Part shown: in pieces, positions 3,712-15,755 of the stretch | Layout of the letters: every line of letters starts with the position of its first letter | Position numbering within the stretch: the first letter of the stretch is position 1 | From: Phycisphaerales bacterium | Lineage (GTDB): Bacteria; Planctomycetota; Phycisphaerae; UBA1845; G020352895 | NCBI GenBank assembly: GCA_020352895.1 | Contig: CP070685.1 | Location: 3,167,683 to 3,204,821, forward strand | Direction of reading: 5' to 3' | Length of the DNA stretch: 37,139 bases | Notes under the pieces: generated by a model | What the model was told of the DNA's origin: nothing | The model's database searches: none | What the model saw: only the letters and a program-made list of their open reading frames with translations | Position numbers and translations under genes: made by a program

Positions 3712-4770
3712 TCACTCCACGTAGATCGTGTTTACCAGAACGCCCAGGTCCTCAGCCTCCAACGTCACCGTATCGCCTTCCTGAAGGAACCGACCATGAG
3801 CCAGCCCGGAACCGCCGTCAACCGCTCCGGACGAAATCACCGTGCCGGGATACAGCGTCCGGCACTTCGAAGCGATCGTGATCATCTCTTCGAAACTGTA
3901 GCGTGGCTGACCGCAGTGCGTTTCGCACCACGACTCCCCGTTGACCAGGGCCCGAAGCTTCAGGTCCCGAATGTCTTCGATCTCGTCTTTGGAGACCAAG
4001 CAGGGCCCCAATGATGTGGCGTGGTCTTTCCCGCAGCCCGGCCCCATTCCGATCTTCTGCCCCCGAGCCTGGGCGGCCCGCGCGGACCAGTCATTCATAA
4101 GGCAGTACCCGCAAATGTACTCGCCGGCTCGCTCCAACGGCACGTTGCGGCAGCGGCGCCCGATCACACACGCGATCGTCAGTTCGAAGTCCATCTGCGC
4201 TTCACCACGAGGGAACGGAACCCGCTGCCCGTGACCATACAGCGCCGTGGAGTTCCCGCTGTAGTACACCGGCTGGTCATACCACTCCGCGGCCACATCC
4301 GTGCCGCGAAAGCCGGCCACCATCTTGGCGTGCTCTTCGAAGCCATGAAAGCACAGCAACGCGCTGGGACGCAACAACGGGGGACCCATATACACGTCCG
4401 TGACCGAAAGTCCGCCGGTGGGATGCCGGGAGGCCCAGTCCGCCAGTCTGGCCCACGCGCTCCGCGACTCCAGCCACTCCACCAACTTGGTCGCCAGCGG
4501 CAAGCCTAACGTCGTGTCGCTCGGGTCCACGCAGTTGGTCACCGGCACGACGTGCTGATGGACCACCAATCCCACGCGCGCCTCCCAGGGAATGCGCCGG
4601 GACAGATCAACATCACGCTGTTCGTCGCTCGTATAGTACTGACAGAGTTTCACTAGACCGCCGCTGGCTCTTACGCGCCCCTTCTCGAATCCGCTATGTG
4701 TAATGATTCGCGCTCGATATTGCAACTCTCGCCGCTGACTCTCGTCAGAATCCGTCGACTGGCGAGGCAT
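3712..4770 (-). CDS. Fumarylacetoacetate hydrolase family protein with altered active-site residues
   Basis: The 352-residue protein matches the FAH C-terminal domain from roughly residue 115 onward: MDFELTIACVIG (metal-ligand strand), MNDWSARAAQ (Asp-Trp motif), GPGCGKDHATSLGP (conserved Lys), and a terminal ISSGAVDGGSGL followed by GRFLQEGDTVTLEAEDLG. Family members hydrolyse C-C bonds in acylpyruvates or decarboxylate and isomerise related diketo acids, using a divalent metal. Two positions differ from the usual pattern: the metal-strand motif E-x-E reads E-L-T, and the usual SGT near the C-terminus reads SGA. The substrate is therefore uncertain and activity may be changed. The first 100 residues resemble the N-terminal domain of the longer FAH subgroup. 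A DUF4097-like lipoprotein gene follows on the same strand. Confidence 0.85.
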   Translation of the reverse strand: MPRQSTDSDESQRRELQYRARIITHSGFEKGRVRASGGLVKLCQYYTSDEQRDVDLSRRIPWEARVGLVVHQHVVPVTNCVDPSDTTLGLPLATKLVEWLESRSAWARLADWASRHPTGGLSVTDVYMGPPLLRPSALLCFHGFEEHAKMVAGFRGTDVAAEWYDQPVYYSGNSTALYGHGQRVPFPRGEAQMDFELTIACVIGRRCRNVPLERAGEYICGYCLMNDWSARAAQARGQKIGMGPGCGKDHATSLGPCLVSKDEIEDIRDLKLRALVNGESWCETHCGQPRYSFEEMITIASKCRTLYPGTVISSGAVDGGSGLAHGRFLQEGDTVTLEAEDLGVLVNTIYVE

Positions 4771-5244
4771 CCATCTGCGTCCTGGATGGGCCGCCCACTA
4801 GAAAAACCAGCAAGACCTCACATGTCGTGCGTCCCGTAACTTCATGAACCACAACATGCAGCGCCGCCTGGCCGCGACGGAGTGCACGCGCCTTGGCCGG
4901 CGCGTTGGCAATTCCCCGGCGCTACCAACCAGCGAGCCAGACGCCACAAACCCGATAACCGGCGCTTCGGCCAGCCGAATCGACGCTCCCGGCCTCCTTG
5001 GCCGGACCAGACTCCAAGACCTGCTGCCGAACGACCCCGTAACGAAGTGCCCCCCGCCGCGATCCGCTCGCGTTACCTTACCTCCAACCCTTCTTACAGC
5101 CCCAGTTTAGCCGGCGACCTTTTGTAGCCAGCCGACACTCCACGAGTCGCAGTGCCTCCGGGTCACCGGCCCCGCACGATGATTGCGACCTGCTCCCGGT
5201 TCGGACACCTCGAATATTTGCCTCATCCGCTTGAATACCTCCCC

Positions 5245-5283: not shown

Positions 5284-5312
5284 TTGACCGTGCAAGAAGC
5301 CATGAGTAAGAT
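5284..5312 (+). promoter_or_regulatory. Candidate sigma-70 type promoter for the FHA-kinase-ECF operon
   Basis: TTGACC (5284-5289) and TAAGAT (5307-5312) are separated by exactly 17 bases, matching the -35/-10 consensus at 5/6 and 4/6 positions. The predicted transcript starts near 5319 and has a leader of about 87 bases before the ATG at 5406. Planctomycete housekeeping promoters are poorly characterised, so this is a sequence match only. Confidence 0.45.
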
Positions 5313-5405
5313 CAATTTTTCTTCCGTTCTCAGGGACGCGGCCTGCTGCGACAGAACCCGCCCCGCCAGCCGGTGCAACATGCCCGGCCGCCTGGAGGCG
5401 TGTTG

Positions 5406-7091
5406 ATGTTCTCCAATCTCACAATGGTTCGACTCAAGGCCGCCGAGAACGCCCTCCGTGACGGCCGCCTTGACGAGGCCTACCGACTCGCCACCGCGCC
5501 TGACCTTCGCGACCATCGGCGTGCCCAGAAAGTCCTGATCAAGGTCGCCGGCAAGCTGACCCAGCGTGCCAAAAGCCATTATGACGCGGGACTTTACGAC
5601 GAGGCCCTCGCAGATCTGAACCGTGCCGCCACGGCCAACGTGGACCTACCGGACATCAATCGGCTCCGAGAGGAGATACGCGAGGCCGCCCGGCAGAGCC
5701 GCTACCGGGAACACCAGCAGAAACGCCGCATCGGCGCTGCCCGTCAGCGCATCGAGGCCGGAAGCCTCATCGGCGGTCAGCAGCTCCTTGACCAGGCCGA
5801 CGCGCTCGATCCTCAAGCTCAGCAACTCCGCAAGATCGCCGAGGCCAATGCCGCTCAGGCCAGCGACGAGCTCGCCGAGGCCGAGAAGCTCCTCAAGCAG
5901 GACCAGATCGACGGAGCCGTCGAACGCCTCCGCCGCGCGCGCAGCCTCAACGCCCACGATCCGCGGGCCAGCGAGCTTGAAGGCAAGATCATGAAGCGCC
6001 TGCTCGACGCGGCCCACGACGCCGTCAAGGACGGCCGCACCGACCGCGCACAGGCCCATCTGAGCCTCATCCGCCCTCTCGGGCGGAACGATCCGCGCAG
6101 GCACGAACTCGAGCGCAACCTGGAACTGATCGGTCGCGTGGCTCGTACCGCGGCCGCCGCTCAGTACGACGAGGCCCTACGCGTCTTGCGCCAGCTCCGC
6201 CACCTGCTGCCGGACGTCCGCTGGATCAAAGAAGCGGAGGAGCAGGTCTCCAAGCTCCGCGACATCCGCCTGGCTCTGCTCAGCGGTCCCTTGGGCATTG
6301 CTGGAGAGTCGGAAGGTGGTTCGGGCTCTGCAGGAAGGCCTGTACCGGTGCGCGGTGCGGCGGCTCGAGCCATCGACCAGCCGACCGTGCGGCTCGCCTC
6401 AGGTTCCCCCGGCCAGATGGCATTCTGGGGCGGCACGACGCCGGGCGCCGAGGAAAGCGGGCTGCCCGCCCGGCTGCTCATGCTCATCGACGGCGTAGGC
6501 AGCTACCTGCTCCTCACCCAGCCGCGTGTCTCCATCGGCCGCCTGACCCGAGGCCCCGGGGCCCGTGACAGCGTCGCCGACATCGCTCTGCTGGCCGACA
6601 TCTCCAGGCACCACGCCGACATCGCCCGCATCGAGGATGACTACTTCATCTTCCCCCACCGCGACGTGCTCGTCGACGGTGAGCGTACCAGCCACCGCCT
6701 GTTGTTCGACAAAAACCGCATCACGCTGGGCAAACTGGCCCGCATTACCTACCGGCTGCCCAACCCGAGAAGCTCCACCGCCGTATTGAGCCTGTCCGAC
6801 AGCGTACGGATGAGCCACGGCGTGCGGGACATTCTCCTGTTCAGCCAACTGGCCGTGCTGGGCCCCGGGCGTCATTGCCACGTGAAACTGCCCCGCGTCA
6901 AGGATAATCTGATTCTCTACGCCCAGAAGGGTAAGCTGTTTATGCGGCCCCAGCCCGGACGTCCAGAGGAGCGCTTCGACCCGCTTGACAAACACGAAAT
7001 CAGACTGGGCCAGCCGTTCACCTTGCTGGACATCGGGTTCTGTTTCGAGCCCTGGCCCGACGAATCGGGAACCTCAGGCGCCAAGGCCTGA
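5406..7091 (+). CDS. Helical-repeat (TPR-like) protein with C-terminal FHA domain
   Basis: The 561-residue cytoplasmic protein has no signal peptide. Residues 1-300 are alanine- and leucine-rich helical pairs resembling tetratricopeptide repeats (for example ENALRDGRLDEAYRLA, SHYDAGLYDEALADL and AQYDEALRVLRQL). About residues 350-445 form an FHA domain: SIGR around 376, SRHHADIAR from 400, and VDGERT where many FHA domains have Asn-Gly. FHA domains bind phosphothreonine peptides, so this is a likely reader of the kinase encoded 20 bases downstream. About 110 further residues after the FHA core may form a second beta domain. ATG at 5406 is chosen because GGAGG sits 7 bases upstream; an in-frame ATG at 5373 lacks a ribosome site. 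Confidence 0.85.
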   Translation: MFSNLTMVRLKAAENALRDGRLDEAYRLATAPDLRDHRRAQKVLIKVAGKLTQRAKSHYDAGLYDEALADLNRAATANVDLPDINRLREEIREAARQSRYREHQQKRRIGAARQRIEAGSLIGGQQLLDQADALDPQAQQLRKIAEANAAQASDELAEAEKLLKQDQIDGAVERLRRARSLNAHDPRASELEGKIMKRLLDAAHDAVKDGRTDRAQAHLSLIRPLGRNDPRRHELERNLELIGRVARTAAAAQYDEALRVLRQLRHLLPDVRWIKEAEEQVSKLRDIRLALLSGPLGIAGESEGGSGSAGRPVPVRGAAARAIDQPTVRLASGSPGQMAFWGGTTPGAEESGLPARLLMLIDGVGSYLLLTQPRVSIGRLTRGPGARDSVADIALLADISRHHADIARIEDDYFIFPHRDVLVDGERTSHRLLFDKNRITLGKLARITYRLPNPRSSTAVLSLSDSVRMSHGVRDILLFSQLAVLGPGRHCHVKLPRVKDNLILYAQKGKLFMRPQPGRPEERFDPLDKHEIRLGQPFTLLDIGFCFEPWPDESGTSGAKA

Positions 7092-7111
7092 TTCCTGTTG
7101 GAGAGCGACCC

Positions 7112-10100
7112 GTGGCTTTCACTTTCAAACATGGCGACAAACCGCTGGAAGGCTACGTCATCCAACGCGGCGTAGGCAAGGGCGGCTTCGGAGAGGTCTA
7201 CTACGCCCTCTCTGAAGGCGGCAAGGAAGTCGCCCTCAAGTACCTGCGCGACAATCCGCAGATCGAGCTGCGCGGCGTTTCCCACTGCATGAACCTCAAG
7301 AGCCCGCACCTGGTCACCATCTATGACGTCAAGCAGAACGATGAGGGCGAATACTTCATCATCATGGAGTACATTGACGGTCCGTCGTTGCGCGATCTGC
7401 TCGTGGCCGAGCCCTCCGGCCTGGGCGCGCAGAAGGCCGCCTTCTTCGTCTCCGAGATCGCCAAGGGCCTCAGCTATCTCCATGATCGCGGCATCATTCA
7501 CCGCGACATGAAGCCGGGCAACATCTTCTACGAAGACGGCTATGTGAAGATCGGCGACTACGGCCTGAGCAAGTTCATCTCCCTCTCGCGGCACAGCGGA
7601 CAGACCGCCAGCGTAGGCACCGTCCACTACATGGCACCCGAGGTCGGCAGCGGCAACTATCATCGCGGCATCGACATCTACGCCCTCGGCGTCATGCTCT
7701 ACGAGATGCTCCTGGGCAGAGTCCCCTTCGAAGGAAGCTCGATGGGTGAAGTGCTCATGAAGCACCTCACCGAGCAGCCCGAGGTGGACGCCCTGCCGGA
7801 CCCCTTCGGCGACGTGATCCGCAGAGCTCTGGCCAAGGACCCCAACGACCGCTATCAGTCAATCAACGAGATGGCCCAGGACATCATCGCCGCGGACCAC
7901 GTGCGCAAGAGCATCGCCGATTTCAAGCCCGGCAGCCTGACGACCATCGCCCGGCAGGCGGTGGAAACGCAGGTCATGGACTCGCCGCACCCGTCGCCTC
8001 AAGGGCGGCCCTTCATACCGCCGCCCAGGCCGCGACCGCACGACGACAACATCCTGGACGCCCAGGCCTTCAGCGACCGCCTGGCCCAGCATATGGAGCG
8101 TCGGGGCCAGCCGCAGTACGGGCCGCCGAGCCCGGCGGTAATGCCCGCCATTGGTGAGAGGCCCACGCCCGCCGACATGGTCCAGTCGGCCGCGCCGCGC
8201 GGCAGCCGCATCGGGGGCTTTGTTCTGTCCGCCATCGTCGCCATCGGTCTGTCGGTCGGCGTTAGCCTGCTCGCCGGAGTGCGCAACACCATTCCCGAGC
8301 ACACCTTGATGATCTTCGCCTTCATCATGGCCATCCGCATCGGTGTCGGTATCGCCGAGCGTGTCGTGAGCCGCATGGCGGCGCCGGCCAGTTCCAAGTG
8401 GGCCAACCGACTGATCGTGCTCGGATGCTCCACATTGCCGATTCTTCTCGTCGGGGCCATCGCCAACGAGCAACTCGGTCGGTTCTATGACCGCACCAAC
8501 ATGTGGATGGACCACAACGACATGTGGATGCTGGCTCTGAGTGTCTGGATCGCCTCGGGCGTCGTCGACTGGATGAAGCGGCTTCGAGACGGACTGCGCG
8601 GCCAGGTGTGCTTCGGCAGTGCCTTCTGGGCCGGCCTGTTCTGCTGCATCGCGGCCGCCATCCTGTCCGAGGCCAACGATTCCATCATGATCATGGCCGC
8701 CGGAATCGGGGCCGCCGCCTCACTCAGCCTCCAGGCCAGCGCCCTGTTCAAGCGACCGGCACTAGCCGGGGGAGCCATGCCCCCTCAAGGCCCGCCCGGC
8801 GCATTGGGTCCCGAGCCTTCAAAAAAAAACGATAGCCGCAATGCCGCGATCGCGGAGGCAGCCGAGGCCCTTGGCGATCTCGCGAGTGTACCCGCGGCAC
8901 TAGCCGGCGTCGCTTCTCTCTCGCAAGAATGCCGCGAACCTGAGCCAAGTGGGTTCTACTCGCCCGCGCGGCGCTACGCCGCTGCTCCGGTGCGGCGCAG
9001 GCGTTCCACGCCGGCTCGGGTCTTCTGGGGCATCGTGTCCGGCCTGCTGCTGTTCGGGGCAGCGGTCTGCGGCCTGGGCACGGGAATGATCGCCCACGGC
9101 GACGAGGAAATCATGGGCTTCCTCATCGGAGCCTCCTGCTGCGTCGTCATGGCGATCTTCACCCTCACGAAGACCACCCACTACAAGCGGCTTGGTTTCT
9201 GGAACGAGACGGCCCGGCCGTTCCTCACCTGTGCGTTCTTCAGCGGGGCCGCCGCCCTGGCCCTCGTGATCGCGTTCCTGCCCATGATCAAGGATGATCG
9301 CTTCGGCGTCGCCGTCGGGCTAGTCTTCTGCCTTGTGTTCGGCCTGTTCTGCGCGTTCATGGGCGGACGCCGCCAACGTCTGGTCGGCACAACGCAGGCC
9401 GGCCCATACGAAAGAGATGTTGCCGGCGAGCCTTCCGCCCCGGCCGTGTCCCCGTATGCACGCACGTCAGCGCTGCGCCTGCGCAGGCCCATCGCTCGCG
9501 CCTTCTGGGCGCTGGTTTCGGCCGCGCTTCTCAGCGGCGCGGGCATCAACGGAATGGCCATCGGGCTCATGGCCCAAAGCGACGAAGAGATGATGGGCTT
9601 CATCATCGGCGCGGCCTGCTGCGGCATCATGGCCATCTTCACTCTTCTGAAGACCACGCGCCACAAGCGGTTCGGCTTCTGGAACGAGACGGCCCGACCT
9701 CTGCTTGTGTGCACATTCCTCTGCGGGCTTGTCGCTCTGGCACTGGTGATTGGCTTCATCGACCTGGATGACGCGGGTCTGTTCGGCGTGATCAGTGGCA
9801 TGATCCCCTGCGGCGCCCTGGCCCTGCTTTTCCTCTTCCTCGGCGGGTTCCGCCGTCACGGCATTGCCGAGGTCAGGCCCAAGCGATCCAGGCGCTGGGC
9901 ACTCGTTCCCGTGATCGCCGTCATCGCTCTGGCGGCCCTCGCCGGGATGACCCTCATGGCGAGGTTGAGCCGAGGCGGTTTCCTGCCTCCTGAGATCCCG
10001 ACGCCTGTCCCTAGGTTCACGACGTCCGTCCTTCTCACGCCCTTTTGGGAGAAGGCGATCCCGGTCATTGGGACCGACGACGTCCGCTACACCTGGAAAG

Positions 10101-10315
10101 TCATCGAGGACGGGAAAGCCGTTCGCGTCACCATCCTCAGCGACGAGCACTACAAAGACGCTCCGCTCGTGTACAGTTGGCAAGCTGCCGACGGAAGCGT
10201 TGTCGAGGAGAACGTCTTTTTGGACCTGGAGCCCGGAGCGAGCTACCAGCGCACGTGGCACCCGAGCACCGTAGTCGGCCCAGGCCAATTGATCATCGAG
10301 ATGAACGACCGATGA
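7112..10315 (+). CDS. Large membrane Ser/Thr protein kinase with duplicated membrane module
   Basis: This 1067-residue protein starts at GTG. Residues 10-270 are a Hanks-type kinase: glycine loop GVGKGGFGEVY from about 20, VALKYL lysine at 43, catalytic HRDMKPGN with Asp132, DYG in place of DFG at 149, and APE after the activation segment. All residues needed for catalysis are present. A Pro-rich linker follows, then many hydrophobic segments from about residue 365. Two copies of one membrane module occupy roughly 628-756 and 790-918, sharing DEE-hMGFhIGA and GFWNETARP. A last transmembrane helix leads to a C-terminal domain of about 100 residues, possibly extracytoplasmic. The gene lies between an FHA protein and a sigma-factor operon member, so it probably phosphorylates local partners in response to an envelope signal. 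That role is inferred. Confidence 0.92.
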   Translation: MAFTFKHGDKPLEGYVIQRGVGKGGFGEVYYALSEGGKEVALKYLRDNPQIELRGVSHCMNLKSPHLVTIYDVKQNDEGEYFIIMEYIDGPSLRDLLVAEPSGLGAQKAAFFVSEIAKGLSYLHDRGIIHRDMKPGNIFYEDGYVKIGDYGLSKFISLSRHSGQTASVGTVHYMAPEVGSGNYHRGIDIYALGVMLYEMLLGRVPFEGSSMGEVLMKHLTEQPEVDALPDPFGDVIRRALAKDPNDRYQSINEMAQDIIAADHVRKSIADFKPGSLTTIARQAVETQVMDSPHPSPQGRPFIPPPRPRPHDDNILDAQAFSDRLAQHMERRGQPQYGPPSPAVMPAIGERPTPADMVQSAAPRGSRIGGFVLSAIVAIGLSVGVSLLAGVRNTIPEHTLMIFAFIMAIRIGVGIAERVVSRMAAPASSKWANRLIVLGCSTLPILLVGAIANEQLGRFYDRTNMWMDHNDMWMLALSVWIASGVVDWMKRLRDGLRGQVCFGSAFWAGLFCCIAAAILSEANDSIMIMAAGIGAAASLSLQASALFKRPALAGGAMPPQGPPGALGPEPSKKNDSRNAAIAEAAEALGDLASVPAALAGVASLSQECREPEPSGFYSPARRYAAAPVRRRRSTPARVFWGIVSGLLLFGAAVCGLGTGMIAHGDEEIMGFLIGASCCVVMAIFTLTKTTHYKRLGFWNETARPFLTCAFFSGAAALALVIAFLPMIKDDRFGVAVGLVFCLVFGLFCAFMGGRRQRLVGTTQAGPYERDVAGEPSAPAVSPYARTSALRLRRPIARAFWALVSAALLSGAGINGMAIGLMAQSDEEMMGFIIGAACCGIMAIFTLLKTTRHKRFGFWNETARPLLVCTFLCGLVALALVIGFIDLDDAGLFGVISGMIPCGALALLFLFLGGFRRHGIAEVRPKRSRRWALVPVIAVIALAALAGMTLMARLSRGGFLPPEIPTPVPRFTTSVLLTPFWEKAIPVIGTDDVRYTWKVIEDGKAVRVTILSDEHYKDAPLVYSWQAADGSVVEENVFLDLEPGASYQRTWHPSTVVGPGQLIIEMNDR
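8993..9865 (+). repeat. Tandem intragenic duplication of a membrane module in the kinase gene
   Basis: Two copies of about 386 bases (about 8993-9378 and 9479-9865) encode the same arrangement: basic lead-in, transmembrane helix, DEE-hMGF, Cys-Cys helix, KTT.HKR, GFWNETARP and two more helices. The similarity is visible in the DNA too; the stretch coding WNETARP is almost identical in the two copies. This indicates an internal duplication, not convergent composition. Confidence 0.85.
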
Positions 10316-10373
10316 TCAACCGGAGCCGCTCCGTCCGGCCCAGATCGCGAGGTAGACAGAAGATCTGTTCAAC

Positions 10374-11363
10374 ATGCTGCCGACAACGCAAAACCTGATT
10401 CCCATGGCGACCGGGCTTCTGACCGACGTGTACTGCGTTAAGTCGGCCTGCCGCGTGTCCGACTTCGTTACGCGTGAGTTTCACGGCCTCTGGCCCATGG
10501 TCGGCCTGCTCGGCGCCGCCCTCATGCTTGCAGGGTTGTTTCAGGCCTTCCGCCGCAAGCCTTTCACGGCCATCTTCGCCTTACTCATCGGCGGCCTGGG
10601 GCTTGGCGTCTTCCTGTCCCTGACGCGCACCGAATCGCGGAGCATCACCGCGGTGTTCGATGTGGTCAGGCGTCCCATGGTCGTCCGGCGGGCGCCGCCG
10701 GCGCCCCGCCCCCCACTTGCGGAGCGTCCACCCGAGCCCCTCATCGACGAGAAATACGCTCTCGTCAATCAGGTTTCGCGCCTGGGCGATAAGTACCACA
10801 AACTTCCCGCCAAGAAACTCGCGCACAGCTTCGAGTGCGAAGACACGGTGTGCGGCGTGTCAGACGTGCACAAATCCGCCGACGACGCGAAGGAGCAGGC
10901 TTTCGGCCGCGTCGCCGAGCGACTCCGCCGGCAGTACCTGCCGAAGATTGCCGAGAACAGCAGGATTCCCGCCGACAAGATCGAGGAACACGCCGAGGAC
11001 ATCGACAAAGTCATCGCCGAGGTGCTTCGCGGATTGTCCAAGTCCGGCCGTGTTGAGATCGCAAGCGAGGAGTGGGGAACGCCCGCAGACCCGCGACACC
11101 GTGCTGCAGTCCGCGTCTTCCCCGAGAAGCTGGCCCGGGAACTGCGTGCTACCATCACCGACTTCGTGGAGACGGAACTGACGCCCCTGATGCGGCGGAC
11201 CGCGGGCACCCTCCTGAGCATGTTTGCCCTGTGCATCCTCCTCTACCTGGCCTACGTGTTCGTTGACACCGGCACGCGAGGACATTTCACTCGGACGCTG
11301 CGCGTCGCCGCCGCCCTCGCTTTTGTGGGCATATGCGGCGCTTTGTGGTACCTTGGGGCCTAA
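10374..11363 (+). CDS. Membrane protein of unknown function in the kinase-sigma operon
   Basis: I do not recognise this 329-residue protein. It has two hydrophobic segments near residues 38-58 and 64-83, a soluble middle of about 190 residues, and two more segments at the C-terminus (TLLSMFALCILLYLAYVF, then RVAAALAFVGICGALWYLGA). The middle starts with a Pro-rich stretch (PPAPRPPLAERPPEP), contains a Cys pair (FECEDTVCGV), and is rich in charged helices. It starts 58 bases after the kinase stop and 69 bases before the sigma-factor start, on the same strand. It could be a sensor or an anti-sigma partner, but nothing in the sequence shows that directly. The ribosome site is weak, so the in-frame ATG at 10404 remains possible. 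Confidence 0.75.
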   Translation: MLPTTQNLIPMATGLLTDVYCVKSACRVSDFVTREFHGLWPMVGLLGAALMLAGLFQAFRRKPFTAIFALLIGGLGLGVFLSLTRTESRSITAVFDVVRRPMVVRRAPPAPRPPLAERPPEPLIDEKYALVNQVSRLGDKYHKLPAKKLAHSFECEDTVCGVSDVHKSADDAKEQAFGRVAERLRRQYLPKIAENSRIPADKIEEHAEDIDKVIAEVLRGLSKSGRVEIASEEWGTPADPRHRAAVRVFPEKLARELRATITDFVETELTPLMRRTAGTLLSMFALCILLYLAYVFVDTGTRGHFTRTLRVAAALAFVGICGALWYLGA

Positions 11364-11432
11364 GCGCGGCCGATCGATTTCAATTCTGCGGAACGGCTGA
11401 CCGACCCGAGCGGCGCTGGACGGGCACGCGTT

Positions 11433-12350
11433 ATGGAGCAGTCACAGGCCGACGAGCTTCTGGTCCAAGACATCTTGCGAGGTGAGCAGGAAGCCTGGCG
11501 CAATCTGATCGCCCGCTACGAGGGCCGCCTGCTGGCCTTCGCCCGCGCCCGTCTGGCCGCTCACGCCGACGCCGAGGACGTCGTCCAGGAAGCCTTCGTC
11601 GGCTTCCTTCAGTCCCTGAGCAACTACGATCCCTCACGCCCCCTGGAAACGTATCTGTTCGCCATCCTTCGGTACAAGATCCACGACCTGCTCAAGCGGC
11701 AGGGTGCACACCCCATGCGCACCGTCGAGGACGACGCCATGCTCGATGACGCCCTGCTCACCGAGGGGCACGCTGGCGAGACGCCCAGCCGCCATCTCGG
11801 TGCCGACGAGCACCGCCGGCGGCGGGCCGAGCTGCTGGGAGACGCACTCAAGAGCCTGATCGGCGAGATGCGTGACAGCAACCGGTTCGGCGACCTGCAA
11901 GTCATCGAGCTGTCCTTCTACGTCGGAGGGCGAAACAAGGACATCGCCGCGCTGCTCGAACTCGACGAGAAGCAGGTCGCCGGCATCAAGTTTCGGGCCA
12001 TCCAGCGGCTCAAGGCCGTGCTCGAGTCGTCCTCCATGCCCGACTCCCCGCAACTCGACAGCAGCGAAGTCACCGACGTGACCGTCTCGGAAATCTGGCG
12101 ACGACGACGCCTGACCTGCTTGAAGCGCAGCACCCTGGGCGCCTACCTATTCGGCATTCTGGAAGACCCGTGGCTCGGCTACACACAGTTCCATCTGGAC
12201 GTGGTCGCCTGCCCCATGTGCCTGGCCAACCTCGAAGACCTCCGCACGGAAGCCGAGGCCGAACCGACGCCCGACTATACGGAACGATTCTTTCAAACCA
12301 GCGTCGGCTTCCTTTCGCGGGCCGACACCAGCCCGCCGTCGCAGGCCTGA
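11433..12350 (+). CDS. ECF-type RNA polymerase sigma factor with Cys/His C-terminal extension
   Basis: Of 305 residues, about the first 200 are a sigma-70 family ECF factor. Region 2 includes LLAFARARLAAHADAEDVVQ and the helix SRPLETYLFAILRYKIHDLL. Region 4 has the helix-turn-helix RNKDIAALLELDEKQVAGIK. An extra 100 residues follow, beginning SEIWRRRRLTCLKRSTLG and containing FHLDVVACPMCLANLEDL, a His-x5-Cys-x2-Cys arrangement that could bind zinc. Planctomycete sigma factors with this tail are known; by analogy to ZAS anti-sigma domains it may regulate the same polypeptide. The protein probably directs RNA polymerase to a dedicated promoter set, controlled by the kinase and FHA protein encoded upstream. 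That link rests on operon context. Confidence 0.9.
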   Translation: MEQSQADELLVQDILRGEQEAWRNLIARYEGRLLAFARARLAAHADAEDVVQEAFVGFLQSLSNYDPSRPLETYLFAILRYKIHDLLKRQGAHPMRTVEDDAMLDDALLTEGHAGETPSRHLGADEHRRRRAELLGDALKSLIGEMRDSNRFGDLQVIELSFYVGGRNKDIAALLELDEKQVAGIKFRAIQRLKAVLESSSMPDSPQLDSSEVTDVTVSEIWRRRRLTCLKRSTLGAYLFGILEDPWLGYTQFHLDVVACPMCLANLEDLRTEAEAEPTPDYTERFFQTSVGFLSRADTSPPSQA

Positions 12351-12366: not shown

Positions 12367-12396
12367 AAAAGGAAGAGCGCCGCAAAGCGCCCTTCC
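12367..12396 (-). terminator. Intrinsic terminator for the metalloprotease gene
   Basis: GGAAGAGCGC (12371-12380) pairs with GCGCCCTTCC (12387-12396) with one mismatch and a six-base loop. On the minus strand the hairpin is followed by TTTT (12367-12370). It sits just past the stop of the minus-strand metalloprotease and between two convergent genes, so it may also stop plus-strand transcripts less efficiently. Confidence 0.65.
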
Positions 12397-12422: not shown

Positions 12423-15203
12423 CTAATTGGCTACGAAATGAGCGTCCAGGGCCTTGTCGATGCGTAGCTTGGACTCGCGCAGATGGGCGCGGCTGAAGAC
12501 ATCCAGCCCCTTGCCATCGGCCTCCATTTTGTCGCCGATCTTGTTGGCCAGGTCCTCCAGCGTCACAAAGGCGACACTACGCACATCCGAAGGAATCCCC
12601 AATGCGTCCGCGTCTCTGAGCACGATCTCGATCATCAGTTGCAGGTACGAGCGCTGCAGACCTCGCCGAAAGCTCGAGATGGCCGGCTTGCCCTGCTCGT
12701 CTTCCTTATCAAGCTCGGACCAGATCGAGTCGGTCAGCGTTTCGAACAGCTCGGCGATGGTCATGGTCTTGGTGCCGTCCTCGAGCTGAAGCTCCTGACC
12801 GTAGATACGATTCAGCGTAAACGGGTTCAGCATGGTGAACAGGGCCTGGTACTGGATCTGGCGGATGATCTCGTGCACGGGATACTGCACGAACAGGTCG
12901 AACTGATCCGATCCCCAGTGTGCGAACCGTCCGGGTGCCATCCGGTTCAACAACTTCGGAGAGAACTCCAGCGTTCCGTCCGCAAAGACCTTGTCACACA
13001 CCAGCTTGAGAGCTTCGCGCTGCTTGGCTAGATCGACCACCTTCATGGCCGGCTGCTCGTTCGGATCGCCCTTATAGGTGTAGTTGAGCTCCATGCCGCC
13101 GACGAACCGCGCAGCGAACTCTACCGCCCGGTTGTACTGGCGCAGGATGCGGAACAGCGTCCGCCGCAGCTTGGCATAGCTCTCCCCGTCGTCCACCGCC
13201 CAGTCCTGCATGTCCTTGATCAGACGGCGTGCCTGCTCCATCCGGTAACTGACGAAATCCAGCGGGTCCTTGCCCATGTCGTGCCGGTTCACGTACGGAT
13301 CCGGCGAGAAAAAGAACGCATCCAGATCGCTGGCGAACTGCAGCCCCTCCTCACCGGCCCGGCCGGTAATCGACTTGAGAAGCTCATCTTCGCTCTTGAA
13401 CGGCTCCTCCACCGGCTTGTATCCGTACTCGATCGCCCAGTAGTCGTAGGGGCCGATCGTGTTCGTCACGAACTGCGGCGTGTGCGCCTCGCCCTTCAGT
13501 TTGAACACGATCGGGCTGTAGTCCATGATTGACCCAACGGTGGCACGGTTGGGCGCCGACTTGCCGTTGACGATCTCGTCCAGGTCCAACCAGGTGCTGG
13601 CCTTGAAGTTGTGGGTCAGTCCCAGGCAGTGGCCGACCTCGTGCGTGGCCACCTCCTTGACCATGGACCCCAACACCTCATCGCTCAGCCCTTCCTCCCC
13701 CTCCGCCTCGGCCGCCGCCGACGCAAAGGCGAGCTCCTCGGCCATACTCCGCGCGAATGCACAGCAGAACCGTCCCTCGCGGAACATCTGCTCGGCAAAC
13801 CGCGCCTCCAGCTCCTTCCCGCTCGGTTCGGGAACCAGCCCGTGCCGCAGGCTGTGCGAGCTGATGGGCAGCAAGCGCTCGCGAAACGACGGCGCCCGCC
13901 ACTGCGGGTGAGCCTCCAGGAACTCGTCCAGCAGAGCGTCGTAATCACCAACCATCGAGTTGGCCGCGTACGCCTCGGTATCCTCCACCATGACACGCAA
14001 AAACGAGTCATCCATGACAATGTCCGCGTCGAAGATCTGCCCGGTTCGCGGGTGGGCCCGTGACGGGCCGGCCGCAAAGGGCTGTCCCGTCACGATCCAG
14101 CGGAAGAAATTGTAGCGGACGTCTTCGGGGTCCAGGTTGGCGAACTCGGTGTCGGTCTGCTGACGCACCTGAACCGCATCCAGGAAGCCGCACTTCTCGA
14201 AGGCCTTGTTCCACTCGAGAATGCCCTCCTTAACGTACTGCCGCCAGCGTATCGGCACTGTCTTCTCAATGTACCAGACGATGGGCTCCTTGACCGGCGA
14301 CAGCTTCAGCGACGGGTCCACCTTCTGCAGGTTCCACCGCTCGACGTATCGATTGAAAAGCGTGGCGGCGTCGTGCTTCTTGCCCCAATCCATGGTTGCG
14401 GTCATGAAGTATCCGATGCGCTCGTCCGCCCGGCGCGGCTTGTACTCCGTCTTCGGCAGCTCGCTCAGGCTGTAATGCAACAGGACGCGCGTGGCCGTCG
14501 CCCCGGGCCCTTGTTCGCTCATGGCCGTCTCTACCGGCAACTCCACATTCTTGGGAAACGCCTTGAATTTGCCCCACTTGCTCAGCCCGGGGTGAACCGT
14601 GCCGCCAAAGAGACGCGACCAGCCCAGCATGTCAGACTTGAATACCGCCCCCAAGTCGACGAGCGGATCGCCGGCCGGACTCTCCGTCAGGATGTCCACC
14701 GTGCTGATGATCCGGGCAGTGAACGAACGCTTGATCACGTCGCTAAGCGTGGACTCGGCCGCTTCTTCGTACCGCACGTCCGGCTGCACCAGCAGCAGCT
14801 TCTTGCCCATCCGCTCCCAGTGCACCATACGCGTCCCCCATTGAAAACCGGTGAACTGGGAGCCGCCCGACACGCTTGTGGCCATCAGGAAGTCCGCGCC
14901 CAGCAGCCCTTTCGGTATCTCCGCCAGCAGCGTGTCCTCTTTCTCCTTGTACCACAGGGGCAGGAAGGTCTTCTCCTCCGTCGGGTCCGCCGAATCGACC
15001 TGCGTGAAGCCCTTGGTCACTGCCTCAAAGGGCGGGAACTCGGGCTTCTCCTCCGCTTCTTTCTTGGCCGCTTCGTCGCCAGCAGCTTTGGCCTCCTGCT
15101 CGCCGGCCGCCAGGGCCGGGGCGCCTACAAGTCGGTCGCCCGCAAGAACAACCACGGCAAAAGCCAACGCCGCCACAAATCCACATCGTCGGTACTGCCT
15201 CAT
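12423..15203 (-). CDS. Exported zinc metalloprotease (DUF5117/DUF4953 type)
   Basis: A large secreted metzincin-like protease of 926 residues. It begins with a signal peptide (MRQYRRC..., hydrophobic core VAALAFAVVVLAG, likely cleavage after ALA) and a Lys/Glu/Ala-rich linker. The zinc site HEVGHCLGLTHNF starts at His521 (His521, Glu522, His525, His531), the extended HExxHxxGxxH signature. The arrangement and length fit the family with DUF5117 in the first half and DUF4953 around the zinc site. Physiological substrates are unknown. Met at 15203 is chosen because AAGGAG lies 7 bases upstream; the Met one codon earlier is also possible, and the Met at 15227 lies upstream of that ribosome site. 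A terminator follows the gene. The exported peptidase at 16.2 kb hints at shared peptide breakdown outside the cytoplasm. Confidence 0.93.
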   Translation of the reverse strand: MRQYRRCGFVAALAFAVVVLAGDRLVGAPALAAGEQEAKAAGDEAAKKEAEEKPEFPPFEAVTKGFTQVDSADPTEEKTFLPLWYKEKEDTLLAEIPKGLLGADFLMATSVSGGSQFTGFQWGTRMVHWERMGKKLLLVQPDVRYEEAAESTLSDVIKRSFTARIISTVDILTESPAGDPLVDLGAVFKSDMLGWSRLFGGTVHPGLSKWGKFKAFPKNVELPVETAMSEQGPGATATRVLLHYSLSELPKTEYKPRRADERIGYFMTATMDWGKKHDAATLFNRYVERWNLQKVDPSLKLSPVKEPIVWYIEKTVPIRWRQYVKEGILEWNKAFEKCGFLDAVQVRQQTDTEFANLDPEDVRYNFFRWIVTGQPFAAGPSRAHPRTGQIFDADIVMDDSFLRVMVEDTEAYAANSMVGDYDALLDEFLEAHPQWRAPSFRERLLPISSHSLRHGLVPEPSGKELEARFAEQMFREGRFCCAFARSMAEELAFASAAAEAEGEEGLSDEVLGSMVKEVATHEVGHCLGLTHNFKASTWLDLDEIVNGKSAPNRATVGSIMDYSPIVFKLKGEAHTPQFVTNTIGPYDYWAIEYGYKPVEEPFKSEDELLKSITGRAGEEGLQFASDLDAFFFSPDPYVNRHDMGKDPLDFVSYRMEQARRLIKDMQDWAVDDGESYAKLRRTLFRILRQYNRAVEFAARFVGGMELNYTYKGDPNEQPAMKVVDLAKQREALKLVCDKVFADGTLEFSPKLLNRMAPGRFAHWGSDQFDLFVQYPVHEIIRQIQYQALFTMLNPFTLNRIYGQELQLEDGTKTMTIAELFETLTDSIWSELDKEDEQGKPAISSFRRGLQRSYLQLMIEIVLRDADALGIPSDVRSVAFVTLEDLANKIGDKMEADGKGLDVFSRAHLRESKLRIDKALDAHFVAN

Positions 15204-15755
15204 CATCGCACTCCTTCGTGCCACCATCCGTCAGGTGTTGAATTCCGCAGGGCTAGCCACCCCACCTCCGCCGTTTGCGGCCGGCCACACGACAGGCCGG
15301 CAGAAGCCCGCCCGGCCGGTACGCAGGACACGTGTTGCTCAGGCGCGACCTGCTACACTTTAGGAACCGACGCACGTTCCTTCAGAAACGGCAGAATGCT
15401 GCTTCAGCCCCCTTATCGTCCCCCCGATCGGAGCGGCATAGCAAATCACCCACCCTGCGGGCCGGTCGAACTGACCACGCTACTTATCAGCGTCGCGCAG
15501 CTCACAACGTGAGCCCGGCACGTCGCCGAGACCGCATCCGCTATGGCAATACTGATACACCCGCAGAGCCCCTCTTGTTCCCCCGCCGCGTCAAGGACCT
15601 TGCAGAATAGCCGCAGAGAGTCGATAATGCGGGGCTGCTCCGGGCCGCGGCTTGTCCGCATGGCCTCTAAGACCTTGAGATAAAGGCAGTTAAGCCGCCG
15701 GCCATGACGGTTCCCGGTGGCTCTCCGCAGTTGTCCCTGCAACAGGAACCGAATC
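15204..15755. other. Divergent intergenic region
   Basis: 552 bases between the minus-strand protease and a small plus-strand gene. It includes the AAGGAG ribosome site of the protease (complement of 15211-15216) and an inverted repeat GGCCGG/CCGGCC (15295-15300 with 15312-15317). No convincing -35/-10 pair was found on either strand, and the open frames here have no gene-like features. Confidence 0.5.

Follow-up and report, generated by a model that had tools for sequence, protein, structure and literature searches.

A conserved FHA–kinase–ECF sigma factor gene set in planctomycetes and a putative anti-sigma-like domain fused to its sigma factor

Introduction

Does a membrane Ser/Thr kinase that is encoded together with an FHA protein, a further membrane protein and an ECF sigma factor control that sigma factor, and if so, by which route? 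The question is raised by a locus in a Phycisphaerales bacterium, whose genome consists of a single contig of 3.6 Mb with an estimated completeness of 67%. The whole stretch of DNA that was analysed, 37,139 nt in length, is referred to below as the window, and all gene and site coordinates of this genome are window positions. Known ECF groups linked to Ser/Thr kinases comprise ECF43 EcfP/PknT and EcfK/PknS, and ECF59, 61, 62, 217, and 283 have been proposed; four of the groups have planctomycete representatives (PMC8999054). A first-pass annotation of the window had suggested that the four genes form a phosphorylation-controlled sigma factor pathway. Here, each component of this proposal was analysed by domain searches, structure prediction, and comparison with other genomes of the phylum.

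Results and discussion

Gene content of the locus

Four plus-strand genes separated by gaps of 20, 58, and 69 nt make up the locus, and both the open reading frames and the spacings given in the first-pass annotation were borne out. They encode the FHA protein (P0001; 5406–7091), a membrane Hanks-type Ser/Thr kinase (P0002; 7112–10315), a protein with four transmembrane (TM) helices that is designated X (P0003; 10374–11363), and the ECF sigma factor, which carries a fused C-terminal module (P0004; 11433–12350). The start of the FHA gene was placed at the ATG at 5406, which is preceded by GGAGG, because the orthologues begin with M(F/L).. at that point; the GTG at 5373 listed initially is merely the earliest possible start. 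The upstream neighbour is an apparently unrelated fumarylacetoacetate hydrolase-family gene (3712–4770, minus strand), and a convergent minus-strand gene for a large zincin-type protein (DUF4953/DUF5117; 12423–15227) lies on the 3' side. A search of the window against Rfam gave no match, and a hairpin 3' of the ECF gene (approximately 12371–12396) folded no better than shuffled sequences (z = −1.2).

Conservation of the gene set

Orthologue searches in 101 genomes of the order detected the ECF sigma factor in 92, and the FHA protein and the kinase in 91 each; all three were present in 86 genomes and none of them in 4. The FHA and kinase genes are adjacent in 85 of the 101 genomes, the kinase and ECF genes in 53, and all three in 49. 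The linkage of kinase and ECF has thus been lost in part of the order with the genes themselves being kept, as in about half of the genomes the two are non-adjacent or on different contigs. The latter situation, found in 30 genomes, is no proof of separation because the assemblies are drafts. Outside the order, a profile of the ECF sigma factor gave strong matches in 92 of the 298 genomes searched from the class and in 85 of the 392 from the phylum, and most of the regions fetched from these profile-positive genomes again contained the FHA, kinase, and ECF genes in the same order. Clusters of other classes of the phylum also have X between kinase and ECF, and the FHA proteins of distant families are short and have no repeats. 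In several genomes the kinase and X reading frames overlap by 4 nt, which points to a single transcript. Two or more close kinase copies in tandem beside the FHA gene were observed at some loci (L047 and L065; genomes G012, G053, and G096), which suggests that the input side has been duplicated locally.

The first-pass annotation had proposed a search for the same four-gene order in other genomes, and had named an order not conserved in relatives as grounds for abandoning its reading. The set and its order do recur in the order and the phylum, but linkage to the ECF gene is partly lost. The objection that gene order is not conserved is nevertheless refuted, since the FHA protein, kinase, membrane protein, and ECF sigma factor form a conserved linked set. 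The existence of a conserved FHA-kinase-X-ECF module in planctomycetes is near certain. Ordinary co-location, in which unrelated regulatory genes would share one operon without their products being connected directly by phosphorylation, could explain why the genes lie apart in several genomes, but it sits badly with their linkage in distant families and classes and with their co-occurrence as single copies, and is regarded as very improbable.

The kinase, the FHA protein, and protein X

The kinase assignment is secure. P0002 matched the Pkinase family with E = 2.7e-49, its catalytic domain (residues 15–253) has all features of Hanks-type kinases (Gly loop, VALK lysine, HRD, DxG, activation-loop Thr, and APE), and both the catalytic residues and the activation-loop Thr are conserved across 31 kinase homologues. 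This domain is the best conserved part of the protein, with approximately 60–78% identity across the order, and is followed by many C-terminal TM segments; residues ~630–920 of this membrane region contain a duplicated TM module of ~150 residues (ARVFWGIVSG.../ARAFWALVSA...). The ECF gene is thus linked to a gene for a catalytically intact Hanks-type kinase, with no separate anti-sigma gene alongside, as expected for a kinase-linked ECF system.

The FHA protein consists of N-terminal helical, TPR-like repeats, an FHA domain at residues ~355–450, and a further conserved C-terminal segment. The window copy scored just under the cut-off of the FHA profile (E = 1e-3; 20.0 bits versus 20.7), and 13 of 27 orthologues matched the profile with E ≤ 0.01 (best 1.4e-8), so that the orthologues secure the FHA fold. 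Its earlier description as a phosphothreonine reader is less certain. The window copy has G378/R379 and S400/R401/H403 at the phosphate-contact positions and an Asp at position 424, but these residues vary among the 27 orthologues, of which 10 have Ser400, 18 His403, 9 Asn424, and only the window copy itself Arg401. Given this erosion of the phosphate contacts, which affects many orthologues, the protein may dock to its partners without reading phosphothreonine.

No domain match was obtained for P0003, which had first been described as an unknown membrane protein. X is fast-evolving but constant in its layout: a pair of TM helices at each end flanks a central domain that varies in length, and TM3 and TM4 are joined by the conserved motif Y..(L/V)(D/N)..T(R/K)G.(F/Y)....R. 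A hidden Markov model of the last two helices found matches between kinase and ECF genes throughout the phylum, including loci outside the training set. Positively charged residues in both short loops suggest, by hydropathy and charge rather than by a topology program, that these loops are cytoplasmic and the central domain is outside. Several intact clusters (e.g., L043, L044, and L058) have no X, which therefore cannot be essential there. At one locus (L074, 8086–10319; genome G039), X adjoins the ECF gene and both FHA and kinase genes are absent; its retention there beside the ECF gene suggests a possible joint action of X and the sigma factor.

The ECF sigma factor and its fused domain

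P0004 matched Sigma70_r2 with E = 1e-16, and the AlphaFold model of the whole protein (pLDDT 85.9) matches ECF sigma factor structures in the PDB. The transcription output recognised in the first-pass annotation is thus a genuine sigma factor, but not a bare one, since it bears a C-terminal domain that had been missed. Residues 213–305 are conserved in all orthologues, and the module proper (residues 222–297; 12096–12323, plus strand) is helical and, modelled on its own, has a pLDDT of 85.8. It contains the pattern C-x24-H-x5-C-x2-C (C229/H254/C260/C263), which is invariant in all 44 fused and separate copies. In two families, f52 and f93, this segment instead occurs as a protein in its own right of ~140 residues, which is encoded elsewhere in the genome in f52, and in f93 3' of the ECF gene and an AIM24 gene, two genes after the ECF gene (L089/L090). 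The intervening AIM24-family gene is located at 7886–8593 of L089 (Pfam E = 1.1e-39) and at 6891–7649 of L090.

The affiliation of this module was assessed by several approaches. The separate proteins matched zf-HC2 and an anti-sigma model (NF052375) weakly, below the cut-off. Top matches of the module in Foldseek were RslA and ChrR, with weak E values of 0.8–1.1 (best 0.83), and its VIA matches were RslA (Z 5.1), RsiW (4.4), MucA (4.1), and ChrR (3.6), which are likewise weak. The A4 profile gave no meaningful match to PDB sequences, and the ZAS reading therefore rests on the ligands, the fold, and the weak profile matches. Since the literal class I zinc anti-sigma signature H-x3-C-x2-C (helices 2–3) is absent and is replaced by H-x5-C-x2-C with a Cys 25 residues upstream, the module is referred to as ZAS-like and not as a ZAS member. 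A ZAS-like brake is the best reading because these individually weak lines, namely ligands, profiles, folds, and standalone copies, agree with each other; on the predicted structure, the C-terminal domain is likely such a brake fused to the sigma factor. The presence of this domain likely moves the phosphorylation-controlled step to a relief of autoinhibition. Helix 4 of class I anti-sigma factors contacts sigma2 (PMC7406223). In helix 4 of the module, residue 290 is Ser or Thr in 44 of 44 copies, and residue 289 in 43 of 44.

Another route by which the kinase might act is that of EcfP/PknT, in which phosphorylation of sigma region 2.2 supplies the charge for binding of RNA polymerase. This mechanism has been shown for ECF43 (PMC8999054, PMC13147305), the kinase and ECF genes are linked here too, and the sigma factors of f52 and f93 have a Ser beside the acidic pair (PSED/TSED/SSED). 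ECF43 is characterised by replacement of the DAED motif of sigma2.2 and a phosphorylatable Thr, a combination absent from the sigma factors of the order, whose acidic motif is intact (Asp or Glu at position 46, D46 in the window, in 32 of 32, E48 in 31 of 32, and D49 in 32 of 32). As an intact motif leaves no charge to restore, the EcfP route is unlikely for this order, and there is little reason to prefer it as the general explanation.

The fused domain might instead be a zinc or redox sensor similar to RsrA or ChrR that directly controls the sigma factor, with the kinase and the FHA protein having mainly other targets and being mere regulon members. Such a function would fit the invariant four-ligand site, the promoter-like element that precedes the FHA and kinase genes as possible targets (see below), and the many genomes in which the ECF gene is unlinked from the kinase gene. 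It is at odds with the co-occurrence of the genes across the order and their frequent adjacency, and also with the clusters of other classes, in which the genes stay together even when the module is encoded on its own, and is considered unlikely. The phosphorylation-relieved ZAS-like brake is the reading pursued below.

A promoter-like element and its predicted regulon

The promoter with 17-base spacing proposed earlier (TTGACC-17-TAAGAT; 5284–5312, plus strand) could not be upheld, as its single match equals the number expected by chance (mean of 1.0 in shuffled sequences). Nor could the adjacent inverted repeat; the repeats nearby are just 6–7 nt long and occur at chance level. A different, bipartite element, CGAATATTTGCCTCATCCGCTTGAATAC (SRAATAWY-N14-BAATHY), was found at 5211–5238 on the plus strand, approximately 170 nt upstream of the FHA start codon. 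Comparison of FHA upstream regions gave the form (C/G)(G/A)AATA(A/T)T-N13-C(G/C)AAT(A/C/T)(C/T) with fixed spacing, a relaxed version of which has 25 matches in 583 kb of loci, compared to 0–5 in shuffles. Twenty-two of these matches are ahead of an FHA gene: 20 listed sites, that of the window, and one found in L068 that belongs to the FHA gene of G003. Of the other three, one precedes the lone ECF gene of L053, and two lie elsewhere. Among 20 further FHA upstream regions, 11 contained the relaxed element; 9 of these were new, whereas G003 and G036 had shown their site in earlier scans. FHA genes lacking the element also exist (e.g., in G091, G079, G012, G053, G007, and G033, and at the loci of families f5/f6). 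Dyad searches upstream of lone ECF genes yielded nothing beyond shuffled sequences. On the genome level, the strict element has 7 sites in the genome of the window versus 1 for the reversed control, and 120 versus 23 in 13 genomes.

In the genome of the window, the element is located 55 nt ahead of a gene for a lipoprotein with a DUF4097 toastrack domain (E = 6.6e-9) and 45 nt ahead of a gene for a small one-TM protein, which is present in two tandem copies. Small one-TM proteins are encoded behind the element in 6 of the first 13 genomes scanned, i.e., this genome and five others. The relaxed element was found at −81 to −135 of 14 of 30 toastrack lipoprotein genes (strict form in 7) against a background expectation of 0.0033 per 300 nt; the resulting binomial P of ~1e-27 overstates the independence of the data, because it ignores shared descent and two of the lipoproteins were first noticed via the element. 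The toastrack lipoprotein is encoded by 64 of the 92 genomes with the ECF sigma factor and by 1 of the 9 without it, a comparison unadjusted for descent. In all three species of one genus (g55; L124, L142, and L143) the element is followed by a gene for a multi-TM protein of ~280 residues that has no significant Pfam family. A BlaI/MecI-like regulator with the strict element in two families (G000 and G024; L141 and L156) was not counted as a target, because constraint on the coding sequence can account for a site that overlaps the start codon. Toastrack proteins are components of envelope-stress systems (PMC11237479), and from the element ahead of the FHA gene, the toastrack lipoprotein gene, and the small membrane protein gene an autoregulated envelope-stress regulon is predicted, which these sequence patterns make probable.

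From the position and spacing of the element, we infer that this ECF sigma factor would be the one to read it. It is possible, though doubtful, that the element is instead the operator of another regulator or the promoter of another sigma factor, and that the ECF regulon differs. Several observations could be accommodated in this way: lone ECF genes mostly have no element, L053 being the sole exception; housekeeping-like −10 sequences occur downstream of the element in several upstream regions; and a weaker excess over the control is seen in ECF-less genomes too (12 versus 5). On the other hand, the two AAT cores have a fixed phase of 21 nt, which is within the −35/−10 range of ECF sigma factors, and the excess is larger in ECF-positive genomes (111:5 versus 12:5; P = 0.003, unadjusted for composition and descent).

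Proposed mechanism

That the locus constitutes a phosphorylation-controlled sigma pathway, as first suggested, remains the best reading given the conserved linked set, with the target of the kinase being a presumed one. The membrane kinase, aided by X with its fast-evolving central domain, would sense the envelope, and the FHA protein would be the scaffold on which kinase and substrate dock. The ECF sigma factor would be held off by its own C-terminal ZAS-like domain with its presumed zinc site, on which the kinase would act, most likely at the Ser/Thr pair 289–290 in the fourth helix, thereby freeing the sigma factor. The freed sigma factor would then recognise RAATAWT-N13-CSAATAC at its own operon, at the DUF4097 lipoprotein gene, and at the genes of the small one-TM proteins. 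To this model of a whole membrane-to-transcription stress pathway, consisting of the kinase, X, the FHA protein, the self-braked ECF sigma factor, and the element, a probability of about 0.5 is assigned. What the computation shows is the conservation of the gene set, the signature of an active kinase, the module with its invariant four ligands in fused and standalone form, and the conserved element upstream of several shared gene families. Zinc binding, autoinhibition, the phosphorylation site, and FHA docking are steps that we infer; the placement of the phosphosite at residues 289–290 is a guess from conservation, and phosphorylation of the ECF brake by the kinase is a proposal. A broader version is put forward tentatively, namely a multi-class planctomycete envelope-stress pathway in which the membrane kinase with its FHA scaffold would phosphorylate an anti-sigma domain and so free the ECF sigma factor. 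Kinase signalling would then act in cis on a domain that is part of the sigma factor here and a separate protein in other families.

Relation to known systems

The nearest precedent is the PknB-RshA-SigH system of Mycobacterium tuberculosis, since there a kinase acts on such a brake near helix 4. A Hanks-type kinase frees an ECF sigma factor through a ZAS domain in both cases, which is shown there and proposed here. The M. tuberculosis kinase is separate and unlinked, the anti-sigma factor is a separate protein, and the operon is not known to contain an FHA or X partner. Phosphorylation of the ZAS protein RshA by PknB occurs at Thr94, close to helix 4, and weakens the binding of SigH (PMC4601284).

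The locus resembles the kinase-linked ECF groups in that its ECF gene lies beside the gene of a membrane Hanks-type kinase (PMC8999054), but differs from them by the intact acidic sigma2.2 motif, the fused ZAS-like domain, the FHA and four-TM partners, and the predicted toastrack regulon. With the class I (ASDI/ZAS) anti-sigma factors RsrA, ChrR, RslA, RsiW, and RshA, the module shares a helical bundle plus a further helix, a similar Cys-His-Cys-Cys order, and weak profile and fold similarity; unlike these, it is fused to the sigma factor, has the spacing H-x5-C-x2-C, and has no membrane segment. As in known sigma factors with regulatory extensions, a domain in cis would replace a separate anti-sigma factor, but the known extensions are cysteine-rich, SnoaL-like, or TPR domains, whereas this one is ZAS-like and tied to a kinase operon. 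The predicted target, a toastrack (DUF4097) lipoprotein, is reminiscent of the PSP/Lia envelope-stress systems (PMC11237479), a likeness judged on the toastrack alone; in contrast to these systems, control is predicted here to be exerted via a kinase-linked ECF sigma factor.

The locus adds variation to the known kinase-linked ECF pathways in the form of a fused ZAS-like domain and of FHA and X partners. Planctomycete kinase-linked ECF pathways have so far been predicted from gene neighbourhoods, and in the literature covered activation by the kinase has been demonstrated solely for ECF43-type systems, whose route via a missing acidic motif is inapplicable here. The present analysis offers a concrete alternative, consisting of a putative brake domain with named residues, a defined candidate promoter element, and a short list of targets. 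Ser/Thr kinase control of an ECF sigma factor whose contact with RNA polymerase is intact thereby becomes directly testable, and the rest of the phylum, where the proposed brake is a separate gene, provides a natural experiment.
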